This document shows positions 8,716 to 36,843 of a stretch of 44,034 bases of DNA, piece after piece. The DNA comes from an uncultured Spartobacteria bacterium (GTDB taxonomy: Bacteria; Verrucomicrobiota; Verrucomicrobiia; Chthoniobacterales; Chthoniobacteraceae): NCBI GenBank assembly GCA_903882875.1, contig CAIRYQ010000101.1:1-44034 (forward strand), read 5' to 3'. Made by a program: the position numbers and the translations under genes. A model generated the notes under the pieces. That model made no database searches. It was not told the origin of the DNA and saw only the letters and a program-made list of their open reading frames with translations. Each line of letters starts with the position of its first letter. Position 1 is the first letter of the stretch.

Positions 8716-9459
8716 ATGCAGTTTCTCGCCGACGGCGGCGGGCTTTTCTACGCGCTGCAAAATTCGACGCTGCCGGGCAAGATCGTGCTCGGCGCGCTCT
8801 TCCTTGCCTCGGTGCTTTCGTGGACGGTGATGATCACGAAGTTCCGGATGCTGCGCCGATCGAGCGTGCGGCGAATGGATTTTCTCGATGCGTTCCGCGC
8901 GGACCGGCAGCCGCTCAGCCTGTTTCAGAGCGGTGCGCGCTTTTCCGGCGCGCCGGTTTTCACCGTATATCAGGCGGGATGCCGCGAGCTGAGCTTCCAG
9001 ATACTCGGCTCGGCGGAGGTGGATGAGACTTTCGCCGCGCGCCTCGAGACTGCGCCGAAAATTTCGCCCGCGCAGATGCGCATGGTGCAGACCGCGATGG
9101 AGCGTTGCGTCGGCGAGACGGCGCTGAAGCTCGAATCGCAGATGGTCCTGCTCTCGACCGCCGTGAGCGGCGCGCCATTCCTCGGCCTGCTCGGAACGGT
9201 GTGGGGCGTGATGGACACATTCAGCGACGTGGCCACTGCGGGAAAGGCAAACCTCGCCGCGATGGCGCCGGGCGTCTCCGCGGCGCTCATCACGACCGTC
9301 ACCGGGCTGCTCGTCGCGATCCCCGCGATGTTCGGCTACAACTGGCTGGTGACGACACTGCGTGGCATGATCGTGGAGCTGGACAATTTCGGCGCGGAAC
9401 TCTCCAGCGCCATCGAGCACAATTACGTGGATTACGGCGAACGCCGCCGCCACCTCTGA
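8716..9459 (+). CDS. MotA/TolQ/ExbB proton-channel protein (TolQ-like)
   Basis: About 247 aa. There is one transmembrane segment near residues 20-40 ('IVLGALFLASVLSWTVMITKF'), then a cytoplasmic loop, then the paired helices with the family signature GAPFLGLLGTVWGVMDTF and 'AALITTVTGLLVAIPAMFGYNWL'. With TolR/ExbD it forms the proton-driven inner-membrane motor that energises a TolA/TonB protein. It is the first gene of a compact operon: tolR starts 4 bp downstream, then tonB/tolA and tolB. The start is uncertain: ATG 8716 is taken, but GTG codons at 8674 and 8692 are in frame. Presence of tolB in the operon favours Tol over Exb. Confidence 0.88.
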   Translation: MQFLADGGGLFYALQNSTLPGKIVLGALFLASVLSWTVMITKFRMLRRSSVRRMDFLDAFRADRQPLSLFQSGARFSGAPVFTVYQAGCRELSFQILGSAEVDETFAARLETAPKISPAQMRMVQTAMERCVGETALKLESQMVLLSTAVSGAPFLGLLGTVWGVMDTFSDVATAGKANLAAMAPGVSAALITTVTGLLVAIPAMFGYNWLVTTLRGMIVELDNFGAELSSAIEHNYVDYGERRRHL

Positions 9460-9463
9460 AGCC

Positions 9464-9874
9464 ATGCGCCGCTTTTCCGACCGCCACGCACTGCACACGC
9501 TCAGCGAGCTGAATGTGACTCCTCTGCTGGATCTCGCGTTCGTGCTGCTGATCATTTTCATGATCACCACGCCGCTGATGGAAAACAGCACCGACCTCGT
9601 GCTGCCGAGCGGCGAGGCGAAGCAGCCGGCAAACATGGAGGACGTGCGCACCGTCTCGATTCACTCCGACCAGACGATCACGCTGAACGACGAGCGCATC
9701 ACCGCCGACGCGCTCGTGGCCAGGCTCGCCGCACTGCTCGCATCACGACCGGATCTGGGTGTGCTCATCCGCCCGCACCGCGACCTGCCGGTGCAGAAAT
9801 TTTCCGAGGTGCTCGACGCGGTGAAGCGCGCAGGCGTGAAGAAAATCGGCTTTGTGCAGACGACGAAGGAATGA
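9464..9874 (+). CDS. ExbD/TolR biopolymer transport protein
   Basis: 136 aa. After a short cytoplasmic start comes the diagnostic segment 'LNVTPLLDLAFVLLIIFMIT' with the conserved membrane Asp at D23, which carries protons in ExbD/TolR. The remainder is a periplasmic domain ('ITLNDERITADALVARLAAL', 'VLIRPHRDLPVQKFSEVLDA'). It sits between the TolQ-like gene (4 bp upstream) and the TonB/TolA-like gene (6 bp downstream), so the three are surely co-transcribed. Confidence 0.92.
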   Translation: MRRFSDRHALHTLSELNVTPLLDLAFVLLIIFMITTPLMENSTDLVLPSGEAKQPANMEDVRTVSIHSDQTITLNDERITADALVARLAALLASRPDLGVLIRPHRDLPVQKFSEVLDAVKRAGVKKIGFVQTTKE

Positions 9875-9880
9875 TGAGCC

Positions 9881-10822
9881 ATGCGTGATGAACCGCTGAT
9901 ATCGCCGGGCGAGGAGCACGGGAGGTTCGGAAAAAATTTCATGCTCGTGCTCGTGGCCCACGTTGTGTTCGTCGTCAGCGTATGGGCTGGCGGCAAGTGG
10001 CTTTTCAAAACACACAAGCCGGAGCAGATCACATGGCTCGACGGCGGCGGCGAGCCAGGCTCGGCACCGCTCGTACTCCCGCTTCCAGAAAGCGGCGACA
10101 CTTCGCCCTCAGTGCGACCGCCCCGGCCCGAGGCAGACATTCTGCCGCCGCTTCCTCAGCTCACGACGGAACCGGCCGCGCCGCGCTCAACCGACGATCT
10201 TGCATTGCTCCCGAAAGTGACGCCCACGCCGACACCCACGCCGCGACCGAGGCCAACTGCGACGCCGCAGCCGAAGCCGACAACGCCCAGACCATCATCT
10301 TCCGCGACACCGAAGCCAAAGCCGAAAACCGCCGCATCGCCGACGCCTGCCAAAAGCATCGCGAAAGTTGCGACGCCGAATCCCGGTGCGAAACCCACAC
10401 AGACGAAGATCACCGACTCGAATGCAAGACCCCAGGGCGCAGGAACCGGCACGGGCAACGTGACGTCCGGCGCTGGCAGCGCAACGAACGCCGGAACGAA
10501 AGGCGGTCCTGGTGCGGCGGGTGGCTCGACGGCCGCACTCCAGTCGTATTTCAGCAAAGTCGAGCCGGTGATTCACCGCGAGTGGAAGCCGCCGCAGACG
10601 GTCGTCAGCAGCAGCCGCGAGGTGGAGGCGCATGTGCGCCTGCGCGTGGCGGCGGATGGAACGGTGGAGTCGCTCAAGCTCGTGAAGCCGACCGGCAACG
10701 TCGAGGTGGACAAATCCATTGAAGACGCGCTTCAGCGCGTGAAGAAGCTCGAACGCCCGCCCGCGGAACTGCTGAAGAACGGAGTGCTCGAAGCGTCGGT
10801 GGAGTTCGTTCTCGAAGTTTGA
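9881..10822 (+). CDS. TonB/TolA-like energy-transducing periplasmic protein
   Basis: 313 aa. One membrane anchor lies near residues 19-40 ('NFMLVLVAHVVFVVSVWAGG'). A long Pro/Thr/Lys-rich spacer follows (about 105-165, with TPTPTPRPRPTATPQPKP-type repeats), then a Gly/Ala/Thr linker, and from about 225 a TonB C-terminal domain ('VEAHVRLRVAADGTVESLKL', 'VDKSIEDALQRVKKLERPP'). The anchor-spacer-globular layout spans the periplasm and transmits force from the TolQ/TolR motor. The C-domain is the TonB type, yet the neighbour is TolB, so it probably does the TolA job; a role in TonB-dependent uptake cannot be excluded. Confidence 0.85.
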   Translation: MRDEPLISPGEEHGRFGKNFMLVLVAHVVFVVSVWAGGKWLFKTHKPEQITWLDGGGEPGSAPLVLPLPESGDTSPSVRPPRPEADILPPLPQLTTEPAAPRSTDDLALLPKVTPTPTPTPRPRPTATPQPKPTTPRPSSSATPKPKPKTAASPTPAKSIAKVATPNPGAKPTQTKITDSNARPQGAGTGTGNVTSGAGSATNAGTKGGPGAAGGSTAALQSYFSKVEPVIHREWKPPQTVVSSSREVEAHVRLRVAADGTVESLKLVKPTGNVEVDKSIEDALQRVKKLERPPAELLKNGVLEASVEFVLEV

Positions 10823-22863: not shown

Positions 22864-22884
22864 GTACTCGGGGCGGGACTTGAA
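22864..22884. repeat. attL: 21-bp duplicated tRNA-Leu 3' end
   Basis: Perfect copy of 32675-32695, covering the 3' acceptor strand and part of the T arm of tRNA-Leu. The rest of the tRNA is absent here, as expected of the far att site of a tRNA-targeting tyrosine recombinase. The flank beyond it (22863 and lower) is the original sequence downstream of the tRNA. Confidence 0.85.
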
Positions 22885-22906
22885 AAGGGACGGCCACCCC
22901 TGAAAC

Positions 22907-22925
22907 CCGCATGAATACAGGATTC
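22907..22925 (+). repeat. Left arm site: 19-bp inverted repeat near attL
   Basis: CCGCATGAATACAGGATTC, matching the reverse complement of 32634-32652 at 17 of 19 positions. The gap to the att core is 22 bp on both ends, so after excision the core would be flanked symmetrically by the two copies. This is the layout of recombinase or Xis arm sites. Confidence 0.7.
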
Positions 22926-22966
22926 TTGTTGCACGTTGCACCCCACTTGTTGCAAGGTGCGTGCTA
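22925..22966 (+). promoter_or_regulatory. Two 21-bp direct repeats in front of the integrase gene
   Basis: CTTGTTGCA occurs at 22925-22933 and 22946-22954, 21 bp (two helical turns) apart; over the full 21-bp units 15 positions match. They lie between the arm site and the integrase start, so they could be further arm sites or an operator for the int operon. The regulator is unknown; the HTH protein encoded at 25037 is a candidate. Confidence 0.5.
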
Positions 22967-22986
22967 TGCACAAGGGAGATTCTGCT

Positions 22987-24285
22987 ATGCAAGAAAAACC
23001 GGAAACATGGCCGCGCAAGATCACGCGAGCCGGTGCTACGGTGAAAATCTACCGCATCACGAATCGGGGGCGCACAGGCTACCAGTGCGCCTACTATATC
23101 GGAAACCGGCGATGCTTGAAAAACTTCACGCAATACACCGAAGCGCGAGCGCACGCCGATGAGCAGGTGTCGCTTTTGAGCGCGGGACACCTGAGCGTTG
23201 CGCAGATGCGCAGTCACGACCGCGAAGCGTTCACCGCCGCAATGCGTATCTTGAAACCACTCGACGTGCCCTTGCTCGACGCCGTGCGCGAATACGCCGC
23301 CGCCGCGAAAGCGTTGCCCGCTGGCGCATCCATGCTCGCCGCCGCGAAGGATTACGCACGCCGCCATCCCGACAACGCGCCGAAGAAAACCGTTGCCGAA
23401 GTCATTGCGGAATTTCTCGCAACGAAGGCACAGGACAAAGCCTCGTATCGTTACCTCAAAACGCTGACATCTACGCTCGCGCCGAATGCGGACAACGGGA
23501 GCGCACAGAAAAAGCGCAAGAGTTTCGGCGATGCTTTCCGCCGCAATGTGGACAGCGTGACGACGGCGGAAATGGACGCATGGCTGCGCGGGCGTGGCGT
23601 GGCACCGCGCACCCGTCGCAATCTGGTTCTCATGCTTCGCACGCTGTTCAATTTCGCAAAAGGGCAAGGCTATCTCGCCAAAGGAATGCCCACGGAAGCC
23701 GACACGCTCACGTTGCCGAAAAAGACAGACGGCGAGAGCATCGGCATTTTCACACCGCAGGAAATGGCGACGCTTTTGACCGGAACAAAGCGGCATCCCG
23801 TCGCCGATGAATATCGGCTCTGGCTTGCCCTTGGCGGATTCGCGGGACTGCGCACGGCGGAGTTGCTGCGCTTGGAATGGGGAAAGCACGTCCAACCGGA
23901 TCGCGGATTGATTCAAGTCTCGGCGGACATTGCGAAAGCGAACGGGCGGCGGATTATCAATCTCCAACCTAATTTGTGCGCGTGGCTGGCACCCTACGCG
24001 GGCCGCACCGGGAAAGTTTTTGAGCCTCGCGCAGATGAGCGGGCGCACGAATACGCGAAACGTCTCGGCATCGAATGGAAGCCGAATGCCTTGCGGCATT
24101 CGTTCATCTCTTACCTTGTCGCGCTGTCCAAGAATTTGCCCGCCGTCGCGTTAGAGGCTGGGAACAGCGTTGCTATTATCAATCGCCACTATCGCGAGCT
24201 TGTCACGGAAGCGGATGGCAAAAAATGGTTTGCAATCATGCCCGACCGTCCCGCTAACGTGTTGCAAATAAAAGGAGCCGCATGA
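22987..24285 (+). CDS. Tyrosine recombinase (integrase) of the element
   Basis: 432 aa from ATG 22987, which has a Shine-Dalgarno AGGGAG 9 bp upstream. The N-terminal region (about 1-130) looks like an arm-binding domain; a SAM-like core-binding region spans about 135-230, and the catalytic domain follows. Catalytic residues: R289 in 'GGFAGLRTAELLRLEW', K317, R370 in 'NALRHSFISY', Y402 in 'NRHYREL'. Two His positions are changed: the first His of HxxR is N367, and the LGH box reads AGNS. It lies next to attL and most likely catalyses integration at tRNA-Leu. Its stop overlaps the next ATG (ATGA, 24282-24285). Confidence 0.9.
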   Translation: MQEKPETWPRKITRAGATVKIYRITNRGRTGYQCAYYIGNRRCLKNFTQYTEARAHADEQVSLLSAGHLSVAQMRSHDREAFTAAMRILKPLDVPLLDAVREYAAAAKALPAGASMLAAAKDYARRHPDNAPKKTVAEVIAEFLATKAQDKASYRYLKTLTSTLAPNADNGSAQKKRKSFGDAFRRNVDSVTTAEMDAWLRGRGVAPRTRRNLVLMLRTLFNFAKGQGYLAKGMPTEADTLTLPKKTDGESIGIFTPQEMATLLTGTKRHPVADEYRLWLALGGFAGLRTAELLRLEWGKHVQPDRGLIQVSADIAKANGRRIINLQPNLCAWLAPYAGRTGKVFEPRADERAHEYAKRLGIEWKPNALRHSFISYLVALSKNLPAVALEAGNSVAIINRHYRELVTEADGKKWFAIMPDRPANVLQIKGAA

Positions 24286-24935
24286 AGCCCACAAAACACA
24301 AAGCCAGCGAGACAACCAAAGAGATTCCCGCGCCAGCAGACAATCAAGACGAACCGTATCGTTACCCCTTGGACTTAGTAGCTAAGATTGCAGTGCGGTT
24401 CGTGGATTCAAACACAAGCGACAAAGCGGCGACTGACCGTGCCATTGTCTTTCTCGACAACGTGGAGAAAACGATTGCAGGAAAAATGATGTGGATTCGC
24501 GCACGGAAAGAAGGCGAACGAATTGCCGCTGTAACTCCGATCCGCTCGACATTCGCCAAAGGTATCATTTGGATTACGAGCAAGAGGACGGCAAAGGAAG
24601 CAAACAAGGCTTACGTTGCTCATCTGCGTTTGCATTTGCGATTATCTGACTTAGGCCGTCCCGCACAGCCTAGCGAGGAACAAGTCGCAGAACTAATGTC
24701 ACCAAGACGCAAGAAAGGGGAAGGCGCACGAATCTCAAAGATTATCGCCAACTATCAGAGCAAGGGATTCAATCGAGTGCAACTCGTCACGGGCAAGGAA
24801 GAATACGACCGATTGCAGAAGGGGTTGGTCATTCCTTATCAGAACTCCAAAAAGGGGAAATCGGGCGGCAGGCCGCGCGGCTCGAAAAAAAGTCGAAAAA
24901 AGTCCTTGGACGGCAAATCGGCATCCGAAAAGTGA
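24282..24935 (+). CDS. Basic protein of unknown function with AT-hook-like tail
   Basis: 217 aa, translationally coupled to the integrase by an ATGA overlap. No family recognised. The N-terminal third is charged; the middle ('DKAATDRAIVFLDNVEKTIA', 'KGIIWITSKRTAKEANKAYV') is predicted helical; the C-terminal 30 residues are very basic and contain GGRPRGSKKSRKK, close to an AT-hook, which binds the minor groove of AT-rich DNA. Coupling to int, the AT-hook and the iterons directly downstream suggest a nucleoprotein accessory factor for recombination or replication (inference). GC content is clearly lower than in the host genes. Confidence 0.75.
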   Translation: MKPTKHKASETTKEIPAPADNQDEPYRYPLDLVAKIAVRFVDSNTSDKAATDRAIVFLDNVEKTIAGKMMWIRARKEGERIAAVTPIRSTFAKGIIWITSKRTAKEANKAYVAHLRLHLRLSDLGRPAQPSEEQVAELMSPRRKKGEGARISKIIANYQSKGFNRVQLVTGKEEYDRLQKGLVIPYQNSKKGKSGGRPRGSKKSRKKSLDGKSASEK

Positions 24936-24936
24936 C

Positions 24937-25020
24937 TTTGGCTTTTCTGGCAGTGCGTTTGGCTTTTGCAGTTTTGCAGATAGCTTTTCAAAGTGTGTGT
25001 TTGGCTTTTTGGTAGCTGGC
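24937..25020 (+). repeat. Four tandem 21-bp iterons upstream of the HTH-rep genes
   Basis: Units start at 24937, 24958, 24979 and 25000, exactly 21 bp apart. Units 1, 2 and 4 begin TTTGGCTTTT; unit 3 begins GATAGCTTTT, so GCTTTT is kept in all four at the same phase. The remainder of each unit varies. Two-turn spacing places the cores on one face of the helix, as in plasmid iterons and cooperative operators. They lie just before the HTH-Rep pair. Confidence 0.75.
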
Positions 25021-25036
25021 GAAAGGCGAAAATCAG

Positions 25037-25306
25037 TTGTGGCAAGTAGTGTGCGTGAATCGCACGCCACGAAAATCAGAACCTACTTCCGGCAAAGTCG
25101 CGTCGCGTGTTAGCGATGCCTCCCCACTCGACGGATACGTTGACTGGAAACCCATTGCCGCACGGCTTGGATTGCGCGAGCGCGCGTTTTGGAAATTGGT
25201 TCACGAACAGGGGTTGCCCTGCCACTACCTCAACAGCCGCGTGGTTCGATTCAAATGGCCCGACGTTGAGCAATGGATGCAGGAACGGCGGAGGGGCGGA
25301 CTGTGA
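25037..25306 (+). CDS. Excisionase/MerR-like helix-turn-helix protein
   Basis: Up to 89 aa; the start is uncertain. TTG 25037 has an AAAGGCG upstream; GTG 25049 and 25055 are alternatives. The C-terminal 50 residues hold a winged HTH of the HTH_17/excisionase type: 'YVDWKPIAARLGLRERAFWK' (helix-turn-helix), 'PCHYLNSRVVRFKWPDVEQW' (wing and last helix). Such proteins bend DNA as recombination directionality factors or act as repressors. Its stop lies inside the GTGA that starts the rep gene, so the two are coupled. It likely binds the iterons or the att arm sites. Confidence 0.75.
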   Translation: MWQVVCVNRTPRKSEPTSGKVASRVSDASPLDGYVDWKPIAARLGLRERAFWKLVHEQGLPCHYLNSRVVRFKWPDVEQWMQERRRGGL

Positions 25307-25755
25307 AGCCCAGCGAGCAAAACGCCGACGCACTCGCACTGGCGAAGGTGCCTTGGCAGGTTTTCGCCACCTTCACGTTGCGCCCCACATGGACGATGTG
25401 CGACTTGAATGACCGGCGATTCCGCGCGGCAGTGCATCTTGTCGAGCGAAGGTATCGGATTCGCCAAGGCGACCTGCAATGGTTTCTCGCGCTTGAAGGT
25501 GTATCTGGCACACCTCACTTTCACGGCCTGATTGCGGGCTTTCCGCCGGACGTGATCAACGGCGGCGGGTGTGCCCGTTTCGTCGCCGATGCTTGGCATC
25601 GCAAGAAGGGTGGATTTGCCTACGCGAGACTTTACGACGCCAGCAAAGGGGACGGAATCGGCTATCAATCGAAAAGAACACGCGAGGGCGACAACGTAGA
25701 TCGCGGCTCTCCGTGGTATTCAGAAAGCCTACTCCGCAAATTGACTGCGGCCTGA
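25303..25755 (+). CDS. Minimal HUH rolling-circle replication initiator (Rep)
   Basis: 150 aa from GTG 25303 (overlap GTGA with the HTH gene). The three HUH endonuclease motifs appear in order: motif 1 'QVFATFTLRP' (19-28); motif 2 'ALEGVSGTPHFHGLI' with the metal-binding pair H72 and H74 and a conserved E65; motif 3 'GIGYQSKRT' with catalytic Y121 and K124 (YxxK). Rep proteins of this type nick one strand at an origin and stay bound to its 5' end during rolling-circle replication. There is no helicase domain, so a host helicase would be needed. A TnpA-type transposase is less likely because the protein has the YxxK and TLR-type motif 1 of Reps. Confidence 0.8.
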   Translation: MKPSEQNADALALAKVPWQVFATFTLRPTWTMCDLNDRRFRAAVHLVERRYRIRQGDLQWFLALEGVSGTPHFHGLIAGFPPDVINGGGCARFVADAWHRKKGGFAYARLYDASKGDGIGYQSKRTREGDNVDRGSPWYSESLLRKLTAA

Positions 25756-26028
25756 TTTGGATTGCCGCTCCGGTGCCATCGTCGCGGAGCCAGGATGAGA
25801 GCAAAGGGCGCGAAAAATCGCGCGAGTGCTCTTGTATGGCAGAGCTTTGCCCAAATCGGAACGCGGGGGGCGCGGGCGGGCGTCTCGGACGTGCCTTAGA
25901 CAGGACGCCGCGAGGCTTCGTAGGCGTAAGGGTGTGAGTCGAAAAAGTATCTTTGAGCGAACACCCTAAAGCCGAAGAAACGTAGCGGCGGCGTGGCTTA
26001 GGACTCGCCTAGACGCCCGCCCGCGCCC
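25754..26028 (+). ncRNA. Candidate structured RNA or rolling-circle origin downstream of rep
   Basis: No coding sense, but dense nested pairing. Domain 1: 25754-25760 with 25851-25857 (7 bp) encloses a 6-bp hairpin (25767-25772/25785-25790), the pair 25801-25806/25845-25850 and a 6-bp AAAA-loop hairpin (25808-25823). Domain 2: a perfect 18-bp stem 25868-25885/26011-26028 encloses 25905-25911/25988-25994 (7 bp), 25914-25918/25969-25973 (5 bp) and 25929-25935/25961-25967 (7 bp). A further 8-bp hairpin lies at 26059-26076. Either a structured RNA expressed as the rep 3' region, or the folded single-stranded/double-stranded origin of the Rep. I recognise no known RNA family. The ncRNA type is a best guess. 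Confidence 0.55.
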
Positions 26029-26159
26029 GTGGTGAGGGAGCGGGTGGAGAGGCGGGGAGCATCGGGAGCCCGATGCGATGCGGAGCGGAGTCGGCGAGGA
26101 TGTGCAGAGCAAACGTGCGGGCCGCGAAAGCTACTTTGCGCGAATCGGTGCCAGTGTGC

Positions 26160-27404
26160 TTACTTCGGCACCGGCTTGGCGTTCAAAGCATCGCTGCATT
26201 CCTTAGCGAGTCGCACGGGCCAATCCGGTTCCGCAAAGAACTCCTTTTTCTCAATCCGGTAAATTTTCACTCGCTCCACAAATTCTTTGTTCAGAGGGGA
26301 GTCGGCCACACCAAGATCGGGATAAAGCTCGATTGCTTTCCGTTGCGCTGCACCTGCGGCATTGGCGTTAGCTATGGCGTTGCCTTGCTCTCGCTTCGCC
26401 TTTTCTATCAAGTCGGCAAGGCTTTGAATATCTTTTTTCGTGCTATAACTTTCGTCAGAAACAAACACCAAAGAATCACCTGAACCTGCGGAAGCAAGAT
26501 TGTCATTGGCGAGCATTACCTTTTTGTCTGCATCAACGGTGACTTTTACCATCCAATGATAGGACTCAGTTTTCGGGAATGATTGGTTTCCTATAATTGT
26601 TGCGCCAGCACTCCGGTTTGACGCTGCTGCCAGCACGTATGCACCACTTGGAACCTTGAAGCCGAATTTGCCATCGGCATCTGTTTTGGTGTTTTGCACT
26701 GCCACTGGCAGGTCGGCGAAACAAAAACTTACGGAAAGGGAGCAAGTGGCCCTGCTCCTGATTTCCCGATGCAATTCAGAGGTTTTTTCGGCCATCGTTC
26801 TCGCCACTTCAGAAACCTTTCTATCGAGAGAATGAATCGCAGTTTCGAGTGCTCTTTGTTCCTTCTCCCTGTTCGCTTCGTTCTGGCGCTTATATGCTTC
26901 GTTCGCAGTGTTCTGACGCTCAATTGCTTCATCAATTTCTTTTCTTAGAGCTTGGAACTCCCGCTCAAGCGGAATCCCTGCTTTGCTCGCAATTGCCAAG
27001 ACTTCTTTTCTGACGTTTGCAACCGCGTCAATGGACTCTTGTAGTCCTTTTCCGTTATCGCCTCCTTTAAGCGAATAGTCGCCTTTGTATTTTTTTGCAA
27101 TCTCCTCAGCATCGTGGGCATGACTGCTGGCTCGCGCTGCCAGTTTTTCAAGAGGTAGAAAATAGTCCTCAATCGGTTTGGCCAGTTTGCGCTTCGCCTC
27201 CAAATCCTGCGCGATCATTTTTTCATCGAAAAGCAGAACATCCACAAGCGAGAGTTTGATATTTTCGCCTCCCTTTGTGCGGATGAAAATTTGCCCTTCG
27301 ATTGTCCGCAAGTCCTCCGCTCGCGCACTGGCGACGGTCAGAACACAGGCGACGATTCCAGCCAAAGCAACTTTCCAAGACAGCCGGGGAGTTTCGTTCT
27401 GCAT
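26160..27404 (-). CDS. Secreted coiled-coil protein with carboxypeptidase-regulatory-like domain
   Basis: 414 aa. N-terminal signal segment ('WKVALAGIVACVLTVASARA'). Residues about 130-225 form a long, charged helical or coiled-coil region ('EFQALRKEIDEAIERQNTAN', 'NREKEQRALETAIHSLDRKV'). At about 235-300 lies a beta-sandwich-like segment 'VQNTKTDADGKFGFKVPSGA', the TDxxGxFxF pattern of carboxypeptidase-regulatory (CarboxypepD_reg) domains. It is the only leftward gene of the element and has lower GC than all neighbours, so it may have been acquired separately. It looks like cargo for the envelope, perhaps surface defence or adhesion, but I cannot name a function. Confidence 0.75.
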   Translation of the reverse strand: MQNETPRLSWKVALAGIVACVLTVASARAEDLRTIEGQIFIRTKGGENIKLSLVDVLLFDEKMIAQDLEAKRKLAKPIEDYFLPLEKLAARASSHAHDAEEIAKKYKGDYSLKGGDNGKGLQESIDAVANVRKEVLAIASKAGIPLEREFQALRKEIDEAIERQNTANEAYKRQNEANREKEQRALETAIHSLDRKVSEVARTMAEKTSELHREIRSRATCSLSVSFCFADLPVAVQNTKTDADGKFGFKVPSGAYVLAAASNRSAGATIIGNQSFPKTESYHWMVKVTVDADKKVMLANDNLASAGSGDSLVFVSDESYSTKKDIQSLADLIEKAKREQGNAIANANAAGAAQRKAIELYPDLGVADSPLNKEFVERVKIYRIEKKEFFAEPDWPVRLAKECSDALNAKPVPK

Positions 27405-27497
27405 ACCGGGCGAGCGTAGCCCGCGCCTCGAAAATTCCGCAAGATTTCCCTTGCGCTCTTTCGATTAAGAGAATAAACATTCTAGTAACCAATCGCC

Positions 27498-28454
27498 ATG
27501 CACACGCTCTCGAAAATCAAATCCCCCTCGCCCGTTAAGTCAGTTGACGCGAACCGCGCCCTTCCCGCCGCCGCTTACCTCGCCAGCCTGCGCACGGCTC
27601 CGAGCCGTGCGGGCATGGTGTCCGCGCTCAACGCCGCTGCATTCTCCATTTGCGGCAAGCGGGACTGGCAGGCCGTTGCGTGGTCAAAGCTCAACGCCGC
27701 AATCGTCAAAGCTGCTTTGGCAAAATGCGAGGGCGCACCGGCTACGCGCAACAAGCTGCTTTCCGCGCTCAAAGGCACCGCACGGGCCGCGTGGCAGCTT
27801 GGCGTGGTGAGCTTGGAAGACTTTGAAAAGATTCGCAGCGTGAAAGGCGATACAGGCGCGCGGCTCCCCAAGGGGCGCGACATTCGCCCGCTCGAAACGC
27901 AAAAGCTCTTGGGAGCCTGCGCGGGGGACAAGACGGCGGCGGGCCGTCGCGATGCTGCAATCCTCGCCATCGCAGCGGCAACGGGCGCACGGCGCGCGGA
28001 GCTTGCCAGCCTGCGCATTGAGAACATGCGGCGGGAAAATGGCCTCACAATTTTCCGCGTCATCGGCAAGCGGGACAAAGAGCGGGAGATTTACTTGCAC
28101 AACGGCGCACAGGCCGCGCTCAACGATTGGCTCACGGTGCGCGGCGCACAGGCGGGCGCGGTCTTTAATCCCATCAACAAGGGCGGGCACATTTCAACCG
28201 AAGGCATCACGACAACGGCAATGCACAAGATTCTCGCAAAGCGAGCGGAGCAAGCGGGAGTCGAAAACGTGACGCTTCACGACTTCCGCCGCACGGTCAC
28301 AGGCGACTTGCTCGACAAGGGCGCGGACATTGCCAGCGTCGCAGGCTTGCTTGGTCATGCGAGCGTGAACACGACCGCCCGTTACGACCGGCGCGGACAG
28401 CGGGCGCGCATCGCCGCTTCGCAGCTTGTGTGCGTGCCCTACGTGGCAGCGTGA
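27498..28454 (+). CDS. Second tyrosine recombinase, XerC/D-like
   Basis: 318 aa with a full set of catalytic residues: R165 ('TGARRAELASLR'), a Lys in 'GKRDKEREIYL' (K191 or K194), H261 and R264 ('HDFRRT'), H287 ('LLGHAS') and nucleophile Y296 ('TTARYDRRG'). It is shorter than the first recombinase, with only a core-binding and a catalytic domain, like Xer or cassette-type enzymes. The intergenic gap to the divergent secreted-protein gene is 93 bp. It could resolve dimers of a circular form, move the downstream restriction module, or mark an older nested insertion; no second pair of att repeats was found around it. Confidence 0.9.
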   Translation: MHTLSKIKSPSPVKSVDANRALPAAAYLASLRTAPSRAGMVSALNAAAFSICGKRDWQAVAWSKLNAAIVKAALAKCEGAPATRNKLLSALKGTARAAWQLGVVSLEDFEKIRSVKGDTGARLPKGRDIRPLETQKLLGACAGDKTAAGRRDAAILAIAAATGARRAELASLRIENMRRENGLTIFRVIGKRDKEREIYLHNGAQAALNDWLTVRGAQAGAVFNPINKGGHISTEGITTTAMHKILAKRAEQAGVENVTLHDFRRTVTGDLLDKGADIASVAGLLGHASVNTTARYDRRGQRARIAASQLVCVPYVAA

Positions 28455-28619
28455 AAGCAGGGGCACCCCCCACCCCATGTAGGAACACCTCTTTTTTCAA
28501 AGCAAAGCAGGCACGTTCCGAAGGCCAGCCACGCTTCCCTACTTGAGATCAAAAACCGTTCCGCCATTTTCGCATCGCGCCTTGTGTTTCGTTTCTCTGC
28601 CAATGCAGAGTGCGCGGAG

Positions 28620-31600
28620 ATGACCCCGGCAGAATTCAAAACGAAATGGGCGAAGTTTTCCGGCAAGGAAAGCGCGGCGTATCAGGATCATTTCAGCGAC
28701 CTTTGCCGGATGCTCGGCGTGCAAACGCCGATTCAAGCAGACCCCACGGGCAACGATTCGTTTTGTTTCCAGAAGCGCGTTGCAAAGGACGCGGAGCTTT
28801 TCGATTTCGACGCCACGGGCGAGGCGTTGCCCGCGAGCAAGGAGCGTGGCTTTGCCGACGTGTGGAAACGCGATTGCTTCGGATGGGAATACAAGGGGCC
28901 GGGTGAAGACCTCGAAAAAGCCTACAAGCAACTTCTCCGCTACCGCGAAAGCCTGCTCAATCCCCCGCTGCTCATCGTCTGCGATTTTCACCGCTACATC
29001 GTCCGCACGAACTTCAACGGCGCGGTGCAAGAGACGCACAGCTTCACGAACGCGGACATTGATTCACCCGCCGCGCTCCGTGTGCTGCGCGCCGCGCTCG
29101 CCGCTCCCGATGAACTGCGACCGTGCGAGACGACGGCAGACGTAACGGCCAAGCTCGCGCAGAAAATCGCCGCCATCGCCCTTTCACTGCAACAGCGCGA
29201 AGCCGTCGAACTCGCGAGCGCCAAGACCCGCCGCGAGCATTCCGTGGCCCAAAAGAAAAACCTCCGCATCGCCCGGTTTCTCAATCGGCTCGTGTTCTGC
29301 TTTTTCGCGGAGGACACCGGCCTGCTTCCGAAAAACATTTTCAGCGAAGTGTGCGCCGTCGGCCTCAATGACCCGATCCATTTCGCCGAGAGCTTGGAAG
29401 ACCTTTTCAAGTGCATGGCGAAGGGCGGACGTTTCGGCACGCACAAGATTCGCCATTTCAACGGGCATCTTTTCGAGGATTCCACCGTCTTTGAATTGCT
29501 CCCCGATGAAATCGAAAAGCTCGCCGACGCCGCCGCGTCTGACTGGCAATCCATCCGCCCCGCCATCATGGGCACGCTTTTCGAGCGCGCACTCGACGAT
29601 TCGCAACGCTCGCAACTCGGCGCGCACTACACGAGCGAGGAAGACATCACGACCCTCGTGGAACCCGTGCTCATGGCCCCGCTCCGGCGCGAGTGGCAAT
29701 CCATCCGGCACGACCTGGCCCCGTTGCTCGCGAAGGGAAAGGCCACGACCCCCGCGCGCGACACGCTCGCCGCGTTTCAAAAGAAACTCGCGAGTGTCAC
29801 CGTGCTAGACCCCGCGTGCGGGAGCGGAAATTTTCTCTACGTCGCGTTGCAACTTTTGCTCACGCTCGAAAAGCAAATCATCACCGCCGCCGCGCAAATC
29901 GGCTTCACCTTCACGCCGCAAGTGAACGTGCAACAGCTCCGCGCGATTGAGGTGAACCCCTACGCTTACGAGCTGGCGCAAGTCTCCGTGCAAATCGGCG
30001 CGCTCCAATGGCGGCGCGACAACGGTTTCGACAATGACCGCACGCCCGTCCTGCAAAATCTCGACGGATTCCAAAACGAGGATGCGTTGCTCGTGCCGCA
30101 CTTTCACAGCAAGGCCAAGAGCTTGAAGGAAGCGCAGGCGGAGGAACATGAGACGCAAGGCGCACTGAAATTCTACACCGAGCGAGATTGGCCGGAGTGT
30201 GATGCTCTCGTCGGCAACCCGCCGTTTCTCGGCGGCAAGTTGCTTCGGCGTGAGTTAAGCGACGCATACGTTGACGCCCTCTTTCAAAACTACGGCAAGC
30301 GCGTGCGCCCCGAAGCCGACCTTTGCTGCTACTGGTTTGAGAAGGCGCGGCATCAGATTGAGGAAGGAAAATGCAAACGCGCGGGATTGCTGGCCACGCA
30401 AGGCATTCGTGGCGGTGCGAATCGCGACGTGCTGAAAGGCATCAAACAAACCGGAGACATCTTCTTTGCCGAGAGTGACCGCCCGTGGATTCTGTCCGGG
30501 GCAAATGTTCATGTCAGCATGGTAGGTTTCGACGATGGAACGGAAACGCACCGCTTACTAAACGGTCACGCCGCGCCAGCAATTCACTCAAATCTTTCTG
30601 CTACGCAGGCCGACACAACAACCGCGACGCCATTGCGGGCAAACTTTGACATTGCTTACATGGGCGACACGAAGGGCGGCTCGTTCGACATTTCCGAAGA
30701 CGTAGCAATATCAATGTTGAGTGAACCGAACCCGCACGGAAAACCAAACTCCGACGTTATTGTTCCGTGGGTCAACGGCCTCGACGTTACCCGCCGCCCG
30801 CGCAGTGTGTTCATTCTCGATTTTGGATTGTCGCGCACCGAAGACGACTGCGCGAAATACCAAAAGCCCTTTTCCCATGTTTGCGATCACGTCCGCCCGG
30901 AGCGGGTGAAAAACAACCGGGCACTCTACGCGAGGAATTGGTGGCGGCACGTCGAACCGCGTCCCGGCATGTTGACCGCTCTTGCTCCGTTGCCCCGGTT
31001 TCTCACGACTGTCCGCGTCTCAAAGTTCCGGCTTTTTGTTTGGCACTCCGCTCCGACGCTTCCTGACAGTTCCTGTTTTTCGTTCGCGCGTTCCGACGAC
31101 TATTTTCTCGGCGTCTTGCACTCACGTTTCCATGAGGTGTGGGCGTTGAAGCAAGGCACACGACTTGAAACGCGCCCGCGTTACACGCCGAATACTTGTT
31201 TTGAAACATTCCCATTTCCCCGCGCCACGCCCGCGCAGGAAACCCCGATTGCCGCCGCCGCGAAGGAATTGAACGCACTGCGCGAACGCTGGCTCAATCC
31301 GCCCGAATGGACGCAAACGCACACGCTCACCTTTCCCGGCTCCGCCGCTGGCCCGTGGGCGCGCTACATTGACCCGCAGACCGTTGACCCGCAAACCGGA
31401 CTCGGCACCGTGCGCTATCCGCGCCTTGAACCGCGCGACGCCGATTGCGCCGCGAATCTCAAAAAACGCACCCTCACGAACCTCTACAACGAACGCCCCG
31501 CATGGCTCGCCCTCGCGCATCAAACGCTCGATGCCGCCGTCGCCGCCGCATACGGCTGGCCCGCCGCCATGAGCGAAGATGAAATTCTCGCCCGCTTGCT

Positions 31601-31697
31601 CGAATTGAACCTCGCCCGCGCCGCAGAGGAAGCCAAAGCCGCGAAGGTGAAGACGCGGAAAGCACAGCGCGAAAAAGCCGCAAGTGACTTGATCTAA
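28620..31697 (+). CDS. MmeI-like type IIL fused restriction endonuclease-DNA methyltransferase
   Basis: 1025 aa. The N-terminal nuclease has a PD-(D/E)xK pattern: D80 in 'GFADVWKRDCFGWEYK', then E90 and K92. A helical linker follows to about 390. The methyltransferase has motif I DPACGSGNF (from D397) and motif IV NPPF (from N533), which indicates adenine-N6 methylation. 'GGKLLR' follows motif IV, and 'RAGLLATQGIRGGANRDVL', a strong MmeI-family block, comes next. The C-terminal 300 residues should be the target-recognition domain. Such enzymes cut unmodified DNA at a fixed distance from the site and methylate their own. ATG 28620 is chosen over upstream in-frame codons because family members begin near 'TPAEF'. 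Probable anti-phage cargo. Confidence 0.88.
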   Translation: MTPAEFKTKWAKFSGKESAAYQDHFSDLCRMLGVQTPIQADPTGNDSFCFQKRVAKDAELFDFDATGEALPASKERGFADVWKRDCFGWEYKGPGEDLEKAYKQLLRYRESLLNPPLLIVCDFHRYIVRTNFNGAVQETHSFTNADIDSPAALRVLRAALAAPDELRPCETTADVTAKLAQKIAAIALSLQQREAVELASAKTRREHSVAQKKNLRIARFLNRLVFCFFAEDTGLLPKNIFSEVCAVGLNDPIHFAESLEDLFKCMAKGGRFGTHKIRHFNGHLFEDSTVFELLPDEIEKLADAAASDWQSIRPAIMGTLFERALDDSQRSQLGAHYTSEEDITTLVEPVLMAPLRREWQSIRHDLAPLLAKGKATTPARDTLAAFQKKLASVTVLDPACGSGNFLYVALQLLLTLEKQIITAAAQIGFTFTPQVNVQQLRAIEVNPYAYELAQVSVQIGALQWRRDNGFDNDRTPVLQNLDGFQNEDALLVPHFHSKAKSLKEAQAEEHETQGALKFYTERDWPECDALVGNPPFLGGKLLRRELSDAYVDALFQNYGKRVRPEADLCCYWFEKARHQIEEGKCKRAGLLATQGIRGGANRDVLKGIKQTGDIFFAESDRPWILSGANVHVSMVGFDDGTETHRLLNGHAAPAIHSNLSATQADTTTATPLRANFDIAYMGDTKGGSFDISEDVAISMLSEPNPHGKPNSDVIVPWVNGLDVTRRPRSVFILDFGLSRTEDDCAKYQKPFSHVCDHVRPERVKNNRALYARNWWRHVEPRPGMLTALAPLPRFLTTVRVSKFRLFVWHSAPTLPDSSCFSFARSDDYFLGVLHSRFHEVWALKQGTRLETRPRYTPNTCFETFPFPRATPAQETPIAAAAKELNALRERWLNPPEWTQTHTLTFPGSAAGPWARYIDPQTVDPQTGLGTVRYPRLEPRDADCAANLKKRTLTNLYNERPAWLALAHQTLDAAVAAAYGWPAAMSEDEILARLLELNLARAAEEAKAAKVKTRKAQREKAASDLI

Positions 31698-31725
31698 AGC
31701 CAAGCGCGCAACCCGTAGAAAACCC

Positions 31726-32046
31726 ATGCCAAAGAAAAAGCCTGCGAAACTCGATTCCCGCACGAGTGAAGCGCCCGCCGAAGTAGAATCAGAATGGACT
31801 CAAAAAGACCAAGACGAACTCGACGATATTGGCTTGATGGATGACCTTTCGCCGGAAGCATTGGCGGAATATCACGCAAGTCTCCCGCCCGCTGTCCGCG
31901 CTGAAATCGAAAAGGAAGCCGACGCGCAGGCAAAGGAGATGATCCAAAAGTTCGAGGAACACGCGAAGGCATACGAAAAAGAACATCCCGAAACCGCGCC
32001 CGTAGCAAAGACCCCGAAGGCCAAGCGCGGGAAGAAAGCAAAGTGA
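31726..32046 (+). CDS. Small charged protein downstream of the R-M gene
   Basis: 106 aa starting MPKKKPAKLDSRTSEAPAEV and ending KAKRGKKAK. Basic ends enclose an acidic, helical middle ('SEWTQKDQDELDDIGLMDDL', 'EKEADAQAKEMIQKFEEHAK'). No family recognised. It begins 28 bp after the methyltransferase stop and is surely co-transcribed, so it may modulate the enzyme, but that is inference. The DNA around its stop resembles the DNA around the methyltransferase stop. Confidence 0.65.
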   Translation: MPKKKPAKLDSRTSEAPAEVESEWTQKDQDELDDIGLMDDLSPEALAEYHASLPPAVRAEIEKEADAQAKEMIQKFEEHAKAYEKEHPETAPVAKTPKAKRGKKAK

Positions 32047-32633
32047 CTTTGATTTAAGCGAGCCGGCAGATTGCGGAAACACCCCGTCACCCCGTCATTG
32101 CCGCGCGTGGCTGCCCTTCGGGCCAGCGCGCGAAACGTCCGCCATCCCGCCGCGTGCGCGTTCTCCGTGCGGTGCGTGTTTGCGCTCGCCCGCTCGCGAG
32201 TATGGCGCTCCGCGCGTAGTCGCCGCGTCCCGCCTCGCTACGCTCGCCCGCGCCGCGTCCGGCTCCGGCTACGCCTTCGCCTCGCTCTCGCCGCCGCGCG
32301 AAGCCCTCCCGCTCCAATTTGCCCGCCCTGCGCGCGTGGCGGCGTCGCGAGTCTGCCGCCATCGTGCCACTCCCGCCGTATCGCCAGCCGCGCGCCTCCG
32401 GCGTGGAAAGGCTCGCGTTGCTCGCAAAGCGTATCGTGCGAGGGCGCTCTCCGGCGCGCCCTCGCGCACCCCAGCCTCGGGAGGGAACATGCTGCGCGCT
32501 TCGCTTGCCCGCTGGCGCGGATTCACGGTCGCAACTGAGTTTCACGCGCGAGTGAAAACCGCAAATCGCGCTTGCTATGCGGGCGCTATGCACGGCGGAA
32601 AAGCGTTGCAGATTGGCAGCATGAAATCCTCTG
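32047..32633. other. GC-rich non-coding stretch at the right end of the element
   Basis: About 590 bp, extremely GC-rich and full of CG/GC runs, with no credible gene: long frames are open on both strands only because stops are rare in such composition, and one of them would run through tRNA-Leu. It could be a replication or packaging region or simply decayed sequence. Nothing else seen. Confidence 0.5.
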
Positions 32634-32652
32634 GAACCTTGTATTCATGCGG
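32634..32652 (-). repeat. Right arm site: 19-bp inverted repeat near attR
   Basis: On the minus strand CCGCATGAATACAAGGTTC, 17/19 identical to 22907-22925 on the plus strand. It is 22 bp from the att core at 32675, the same spacing as at the left end. Confidence 0.7.
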
Positions 32653-32674
32653 CTTCCCCGCCGATTGCGAAGAA

Positions 32675-32695
32675 GTACTCGGGGCGGGACTTGAA
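32675..32695. repeat. attR: 21-bp att core inside tRNA-Leu
   Basis: Second copy of the 21-bp direct repeat. All but its first base lies within the 3' end of tRNA-Leu, so integration here kept the tRNA intact. Confidence 0.85.
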
Positions 32696-32757
32696 CCCGC
32701 ACGGCTTGCGCCATACGCCCCTCAAACGTACGTGTCTGCCAATTCCACCACCCGAGC
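32676..32757 (-). tRNA. tRNA-Leu (GAG), integration target
   Basis: 82 nt on the minus strand. Acceptor GCTCGGG pairs with CCCGAGT (one G-U at the end). The D arm is TGGTGGAATTGGCAGACAC; the anticodon stem TACGT/GCGTA encloses a loop TTGAGGG with anticodon GAG; a long variable arm (class II tRNA) and a T arm GCGGGTTCAAGTCCCGC follow. No CCA is encoded: after the discriminator A the element supplies CTT, whereas the original downstream sequence at attL would have supplied CCC. The tRNA is therefore still functional with CCA added post-transcriptionally. Confidence 0.95.
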
Positions 32758-36775: not shown

Positions 36776-36843
36776 GGGGAATGTGACTGGTGACTGGTGA
36801 AAAGTGACTGGTGGGCTGCTACCAGTCACCAATCACACTCCCC
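36776..36843. repeat. Imperfect inverted repeat between divergent genes
   Basis: 36776-36799 pairs with 36820-36843 at about 20 of 24 positions. The left arm contains tandem GTGACTGGT copies, three in all (one in the spacer). It lies between the start of the leftward CsbD gene and the rightward response regulator, so it may be an operator or a small interspersed repeat. Confidence 0.6.

Follow-up and report, generated by a model that had tools for sequence, protein, structure and literature searches.

The 44,034-nt contig CAIRYQ010000101.1 of an uncultured Spartobacteria bacterium, called the window below when its full length is meant, carries a 9,811-bp integrative element that is inserted in the tRNA-Leu(GAG) gene of its Verrucomicrobiota host and that is real and discrete. 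Judged from the sequence, it would be an element that excises, replicates by the rolling-circle mechanism and needs a helper to move, a reading to which a probability of about 0.7 can be given. Elements built in a similar way occur in other Verrucomicrobiota, so that it represents a recurrent kind of which little has been described, and what appears to be new here is a predicted rolling-circle origin tied to the gene of a minimal initiator protein of the HUH type (Rep). Genomes, contigs and loci used for comparison are designated by G, C and L numbers, respectively (G000 being the genome of the window), and the publications cited by PMC number are drawn on for those parts of their text that were available.

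The borders of the element are formed by two identical core sequences, one of which is the 3′ end of the tRNA gene, and by a pair of mirrored sites just inside them:

22864-22884, no strand: distal att core, an exact 21-bp copy of the tRNA-Leu 3′ end, GTACTCGGGGCGGGACTTGAA.
22904-22925, plus strand: attP arm site with an inverted repeat and CCGCATGAATACA at 22907, 19 nt inside the core.
32634-32655, minus strand: attP arm site, the mirror of 22904-22925.
32675-32695, no strand: att core within the tRNA-Leu gene, the second exact copy of GTACTCGGGGCGGGACTTGAA, equal to the tRNA 3′ end.
32675-32757, minus strand: tRNA-Leu(GAG), the integration target, by tRNA call.

When the region of the tRNA-Leu gene (the gene and 25 nt on either side) is compared with the remaining window, this 21-mer is the sole repeat of at least 13 nt found more than 300 nt apart. 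Bordered on both sides by copies of the tRNA 3′ end in direct orientation and encoding a tyrosine recombinase, the element has the constitution of a tRNA-using integrative element, and joining its ends yields an attP in which the core is accompanied by the inverted repeat around CCGCATGAATACA, 19 nt off on both sides. The G+C content is 51-62% in 1-kb windows inside 23001-32000, compared with 55-68% outside. With one mismatch allowed, 0.26 occurrences of the arm 13-mer are expected by chance in the 308 kb of sequence from 28 loci; five exact ones are present, always beside a tRNA gene or an att core. Two of them belong to the element and supplied the motif, and the others stand beside tRNA-Glu(CTC) and tRNA-Thr of the element's own genome and beside tRNA-Lys in G005, a genome of the same genus. 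Since relatives of the same integrase adjoin tRNA-Glu and tRNA-Thr, the 13-mer looks like the arm-type site of this integrase family. Arm-like matches in three further loci (L091, L092 and L093) were left uncounted, as no called tRNA lies close by.

The genes and sites of integration and replication follow one another from the distal end inwards:

22936-24285, plus strand: tyrosine integrase int1 (Pfam Phage_integrase, 3.6e-7).
24282-24935, plus strand: open reading frame for a 217-aa accessory protein with a GGRPRGS tail, overlapping int1 by 4 nt.
24937-25009, plus strand: four 21-bp iterons, TTTGGCTTTT-like boxes at 24937, 24958, 24979 (diverged) and 25000.
25037-25306, plus strand: small helix-turn-helix (HTH) protein (HTH_17, 2.3e-3, under the Pfam cut-off; phrog_66 'excisionase and transcriptional regulator', 2.5e-4).
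25273-25755, plus strand: HUH rolling-circle Rep, its gene overlapping the HTH gene; alternative start GTG at 25303.
25798-25861, plus strand: predicted double-strand origin, a small hairpin and then CTTGTATGGCAGAGCTTTGCCCAAATCGGAA, directly behind Rep.
25868-26028, no strand: long imperfect hairpin of 161 nt, from its inverted repeat and folding scores.

Of the 40 genomes of the family, 24 (its own among them) have a match at E<=1e-30 to the integrase int1, which lies at the element end distal to the tRNA. In the genome of the element there are five further strong relatives (L034, L035, L036, L037 and L038, on contigs C77, C56, C60, C10 and C108), three of which adjoin tRNA genes, and these loci differ in their replication genes: DUF3987 on C60, a replication initiator-like gene on C108 and, by reading, a possible HUH protein on C56. 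For the 217-aa protein, family scans (Pfam and PHROG) gave no convincing match and the structure model is unusable, with a predicted local distance difference test score (pLDDT) of 36. The exact pair among the iterons was matched in none of 100 shuffled sequences. The small HTH protein is probably an excisionase or regulator, as its two family matches suggest.

The initiator itself is recognised by several lines of evidence. Its match to Pfam PF23343 (REP_ORF2-G2P; 6.3e-4) lies under the curated cut-off; the residues of the HUH motifs, F-x(3)-T, E, H-x-H and Y, are invariant across an alignment of 11 sequences that includes this Rep, and its AlphaFold model has a pLDDT of 83 and a predicted template modelling score (pTM) of 0.80. 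No PDB structure matches the model at E<=0.001, and the nearest ones, with E values from 5.6e-3, are the HUH nuclease domains of Rep proteins from parvovirus and adeno-associated virus. Against models of viral proteins there are 129 matches at E<=0.001; five of the best 50 are named, namely two microvirus replication initiators, two replication-associated proteins and one uncharacterised protein, and three of these five come from tailed-phage assemblies. The model of Rep thus resembles HUH nucleases and the initiators of small phages. Single-sequence searches of phage and plasmid records with Rep returned no relative, and IMG/VR gave none with this Rep as query and one with profile A3, an inovirus of BvORR034. 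Weak Rep matches at L014/L022 and L016/L024 were rejected, their readings being antisense to other genes.

An HUH protein could also double as a relaxase, in the manner of AICEs (actinomycete integrative and conjugative elements) or of MOB-T proteins, and the element would then be an integrative rolling-circle plasmid or a mobilisable island moved by conjugation. This is improbable, because neither a Tra/FtsK protein nor a coupling protein was matched among the eight proteins of the element (scanned against Pfam and PHROG, as in all gene-family negatives given for the element here), and four of the five named viral models just mentioned, those nearest to Rep among the 50, are phage replication proteins, the fifth being uncharacterised.

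The conservation of the origin is part of the evidence for the rolling-circle element proposed here. In G078, whose Rep is 39% identical to this one over the aligned part, 29 of 33 origin nucleotides recur in the corresponding position (E 8e-5, the next best match having 0.42). Among the 213 genomes of the order, a pattern derived from these two elements matches only in G000, G078 and G550, once each and in all three cases behind a Rep gene with integrase and HTH genes beside it; the backward control pattern has one match, in a different genome. The match in G550 lies 63 nt behind Rep, on a contig with the order tRNA-Leu(TAG), integrase, HTH and Rep as in G078, so that the prediction from the two-element pattern is borne out. 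More distant Rep relatives also present a hairpin and CTTGA at the position of the origin; in the hairpin region behind Rep, CTTGA is found at 22 of 30 loci, CTTGT at three and neither at five. CTTG^A is the nick site of phiX174 and pC194. A consensus of this origin and an inovirus origin has one match here compared with 0.11 expected, and this is not counted as evidence, because the pattern was drawn after the fact.

The long hairpin next to the origin is part of a strongly folded region, with z scores of -8.3 and -7.5 for the two strands of 176 nt folded as RNA and of -6.3 for 401 nt folded as DNA. It has no Rfam match up to E 1, and no comparable long hairpin was seen at the Rep loci scanned (12, this one included); a single-strand origin or a packaging signal would be a guess at its function.

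An earlier note on this DNA, prepared from the letters alone, had described a 9.8-kb element with an integrase at tRNA-Leu, and the exact 21-mer borders, the mirrored arms and the presence of all nine parts at their places bear this out. Its 21-bp iterons (four boxes 21 bp apart) and its large folded region hold in view of the shuffles and the folding scores, and so does its minimal HUH Rep, through the invariant residues and the resemblance to HUH nucleases, the Pfam match being under its cut-off. The gene of the excisionase-like HTH protein is confirmed and its family support is weak, and the accessory protein and a coiled-coil protein further downstream are confirmed as genes, their labels 'AT-hook-like' and 'secreted coiled-coil' coming from reading. 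Also as claimed, no conjugation or capsid gene was found among the eight proteins. The proposal of an excising rolling-circle element that spreads by another vehicle stands in so far as the element looks excisable and has a rolling-circle replication module; the vehicle is a matter for the alternatives discussed below.

Relatives of similar build are found elsewhere. The order integrase, HTH and Rep in other genomes, suggested in the earlier note as a check, recurs in similar form in G078 and JACDBM010000370.1, where the three genes adjoin one another at tRNA-Leu(TAG), and at tRNA-Glu in G499, where they also adjoin and the HTH gene lies on the opposite strand; the G550 contig and JACDBM010000370.1 are equal in length and have identical coordinates of their open reading frames. 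In named genomes, profile searches place Rep at 18 loci, 16 of them under titles of Verrucomicrobiota lineages, one under the title 'bacterium' and one under that of an archaeal metagenome-assembled genome (MAG). In the counts of Rep loci, L163 was dropped, having no Rep match, and L150, L158 and L162 were left out as repeating L122 and L156. Among the Rep loci close to a tRNA gene, 14 were tested for repeats, and eight (this one, G042, G295 and five named MAG loci) have both att copies, which delimit elements of 4.5-9.8 kb in tRNA genes for Leu, Val, Met, Val, Val, Asn, Asn and Gly. The slot behind the origin is filled in these att-bounded loci by a type IIG enzyme (here), by Vsr and a cytosine methylase (G295) or by a type III restriction-modification system (BP6.bin43), and in the others by AAA_16 or PIN proteins or by unknown genes. 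In Methylacidiphilaceae UBA1321, two loci with different tRNA genes, integrases and cargo have a common 910-nt block of 90% identity that spans only a small gene before Rep, Rep and the origin, with att repeats at one of the two loci, as if this block had been exchanged as a unit. The small gene precedes Rep at 12 loci and is not matched in the present element.

Several observations weigh against an excising rolling-circle element. Rep is rare, with profile matches in seven of 387 genomes drawn from the phylum and in 11 of the 213 genomes of the order. The element combines an HUH initiator with a conserved adjoining origin, as a rolling-circle replicon does; that origin was missed by a hidden Markov model (HMM) built from the origins of 19 other loci, and inovirus origin strings align to it only at chance level (best E 0.5 in a 44-kb search). 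G078, JACDBM010000370.1 and G499 yielded no att repeat, the stretches examined there reaching contig ends soon behind Rep, and an empty site with both flanks is not among the matches listed for nine other genomes of the genus.

Taking the element to be of this excising kind, Int1, probably with the HTH protein as directionality factor, would recombine the two 21-bp cores and free a circle whose attP carries the two mirrored arm sites. Rep would nick the predicted origin at 25798-25861, at the CTTG(T/A) site that adjoins the hairpin, and so start rolling-circle replication with the polymerase and helicase of the host, a process in which the iterons and the long hairpin may have roles. The circle would then re-integrate, or a helper would take it to another cell, the helper being required because no transfer or particle gene was found.

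One kind of helper is suggested by the wider Rep family, which includes filamentous prophages. Zot is found 2.4-3.8 kb downstream of Rep at five of 31 loci; the two of these that were scanned with Pfam both have Zot, one also has a secretin and a coat-like gene is present by reading, and they are integrated filamentous phages. At the remaining 26 loci none of three Zot queries is matched; downstream sequence extends over at least 4 kb at 19 of these loci, and at the other seven the absence means little because less than 4 kb is available. None of the eight att-bounded loci has a Zot match. Restriction-modification genes lie within 4.5 kb downstream at six of the 19 Zot-less loci and at none of the five Zot loci, and within 4.5 kb upstream of Rep at one of 18, counts that are descriptive and carry no test, because the query proteins came from the same loci. 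The element might accordingly be a satellite of a filamentous phage, with replication as single strands from an inovirus-type origin, packaging by a co-resident inovirus and the long hairpin as packaging signal, which would be compatible with excision and rolling-circle replication. In G225 (L120 and L121), a 462-nt Rep-origin segment 97% identical to that of the resident inovirus stands beside a type III restriction system, although its Rep is truncated and it may be a remnant; G008, in which a Rep locus with restriction genes lacks Zot, shows a weak match to Zot (3.1e-5) on another contig, a long hairpin comes after the origin, and an inovirus satellite plasmid, pDolos, is named in the available text of a review (PMC11389934). 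Such a satellite is nevertheless unlikely. Zot is unmatched in the 40 genomes of the family and matched in 10 of the 213 of the order by a model that also matches four of 14 control genomes; Rep is only about 26% identical to the three inovirus Reps compared, and its placement is unsure in a Rep tree that resolves little and in which its join with the G078 Rep is flagged as a long-branch one. In the same tree the Zot label is clustered (two changes, a number as low in one of 500 shuffles), so that no free mixing of the two kinds of locus is shown. That the small gene before Rep is not matched here, and that no comparable hairpin was seen at the other Rep loci scanned for one, points in the same direction.

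The helper might instead be a tailed phage whose packaging machinery takes up the excised, rolling-circle-replicated element, as in PICI-type elements and the I55 islands, and this reading, likewise compatible with the one preferred here, can be entertained tentatively. It draws on JACDBM010000370.1, where a gene for a terminase small subunit (phrog_4044, 1.2e-17) lies behind the integrase-HTH-Rep-origin series, on another such gene (2.2e-8) near a relative of the second recombinase (int2) in G147, on tailed-phage assemblies as the source of three of the five viral models that carry a name among the best 50, and on the transduction of I55-type islands by a jumbo phage, according to the part of PMC12595487 that was available. 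Against it, no terminase or other packaging gene was matched in the eight proteins, and the contig JACDBM010000370.1 stops 1.1 kb past that sister terminase gene and may be nothing more than an ordinary prophage.

The part of the element between the long hairpin and the tRNA gene contains the cargo, together with a second recombinase and a repeat:

26160-27404, minus strand: secreted-looking coiled-coil protein, by reading.
27498-28454, plus strand: second tyrosine recombinase, int2 (Pfam 2.7e-24), with HDFRRT, LGH and RY motifs.
28584-31697, plus strand: MmeI-like type IIG restriction-modification enzyme of 1,037 aa, with D-X9-EXK and NPPF.
31726-32046, plus strand: 106-aa protein, open reading frame only.
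32102-32519, no strand: dispersed repeat, found at three other places in this genome.

Of these, the coiled-coil protein and the MmeI-like enzyme would be cargo, the latter giving protection to the host and stability to the element. The enzyme has N-terminal nuclease, spacer, methyltransferase, specificity and C-terminal domains in one chain, four of the Pfam domains being above the cut-off and the C-terminal one below; its methyltransferase domain matches at 1.5e-26, PADLOC assigns it to type IIG at 9.7e-257, and D-X9-EXK and NPPF are presumably its catalytic motifs. With int2, it confirms the second recombinase and the MmeI-like enzyme of the earlier note. A copy 78% identical occurs in another context (G148:C66), so that the cargo has its own history. 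The C-terminal part of the coiled-coil protein is 47% identical to a protein at G066:C250. Matches to int2 are confined to three of the 40 genomes of the family, its own included; in G083 an int2 relative is preceded by an int1 relative and followed by a gene that, by reading, resembles a cytosine methyltransferase gene. At G147:C266 (L164), positions 8749-10736, the terminase small subunit gene, a weak polynucleotide-kinase match and an int2 relative stand side by side. A 77-bp piece of the int2 3′ end, 90% identical, is found at G000:C60:171-245 with the remaining gene absent, either as a remnant or as an int2 recombination site. The contents of the element as first described have to be corrected in one respect, in that 32102-32519 is a G+C-rich dispersed repeat of about 420 bp, present in four copies that are 87-95% identical (the others at G000:C84, C89 and C70). 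On the contig of the C84 copy there are also a tRNA-Val gene, an integrase gene and one for an MmeI-type enzyme.

An immobile, decayed genomic island might likewise contain a dispersed repeat and an additional recombinase. In addition, G005, G150 and G066, all of the same genus, retain a similar stretch beside the same tRNA-Leu(GAG), with no int1 match in the stretches examined, and these stretches are best read as scars of a similar end. For the present element, decay is nevertheless highly doubtful, since the integrase, HTH protein, Rep, int2 and MmeI-like enzyme each have an open reading frame and a match to their family, both cores are identical and the origin is conserved.

The preferred reading, of an element that would excise and replicate as a rolling circle, can be set against known systems, and the earlier note's suggestion of an undescribed system is thereby weakened: as far as the available text of the sources goes, integrase-xis-rep elements in tRNA genes (AICEs; PMC3218068) and I55-type islands (PMC12595487) are already known. 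AICEs such as pSAM2 carry Tra, replicate by the rolling-circle mechanism and insert at tRNA 3′ ends (PMC3218068). The element has their integrase, xis and HUH rep module, with a weak assignment of xis, but is in a different phylum, has restriction cargo and no Tra/FtsK-type translocase among its eight proteins. The I55-type islands of Pseudomonas, described as phage satellites in 2025, encode an integrase, an inovirus Gp2-like protein and, in some cases, type II restriction-modification, and they resemble the present element, in the parts of the source available, in the tyrosine integrase, direct repeats, HTH protein, insertion (in tmRNA or tRNA) and lack of autonomous-transfer genes (PMC12595487). 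The Gp2-like protein is likened to this Rep by description, and the vehicle is a jumbo phage. They differ in being larger (the first three share about 18 kb alone) and in carrying alpA and often radC and yqaJ (PMC12595487), none of which is matched among the eight proteins here.

With the inoviruses of Verrucomicrobiota (G225 and Verrucomicrobium sp. BvORR034), the element has in common a homologous Rep family and the CTTG(A/T) hairpin directly behind Rep, but no Zot, secretin or coat gene was found in it, nor a Zot-type assembly ATPase in its own genome. PICI, P4-like and PICMI satellites rely on primase-type replication. They too are small integrative elements with replication genes and an incomplete set of particle genes, whereas the present element has an HUH Rep and no packaging-redirecting or capsid-interference gene among its eight proteins, a terminase small subunit being found only in JACDBM010000370.1. 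The review that names these satellites (PMC11389934) also names two of single-stranded phages, pDolos and RS1. A 2019 survey of inoviruses was built on pI proteins (PMC6813254, available in part), and elements without pI would fall outside it for that reason; the Charybdis elements are a separate kind, without a recognised replication gene in the portion of PMC12324425 consulted. The MmeI-like enzyme shares the domain make-up common to such enzymes, here as cargo of a mobile element. A literature search, whose coverage leaves out most subscription journals and is therefore no proof of absence, yielded no description of the Rep-origin family, nor any paper on filamentous or inovirus satellites, on inoviruses together with restriction-modification, integration and Verrucomicrobiota, or on phage satellites together with filamentous phages, rolling circle, integrase and tRNA.

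Elsewhere in the window, a short repeat at 36776-36838, matched many times in this genome and in others of the genus and in part as opposed pairs, looks like a REP-type dispersed palindrome. A 22-bp tandem repeat of five copies, 98% matching, occupies the contig end (43923-44034).

Small islands in tRNA genes are usually annotated as an 'integrase plus hypothetical genes', and a predicted origin tied to Rep offers a concrete handle on them: it points to the place at which replication of such an island would begin, brings together elements from different orders of Verrucomicrobiota and hints at the phages that could help them. A double-strand-cutting restriction enzyme would not be expected to attack single strands, and if the helper were a filamentous phage, the restriction-modification genes would travel as just such single strands.

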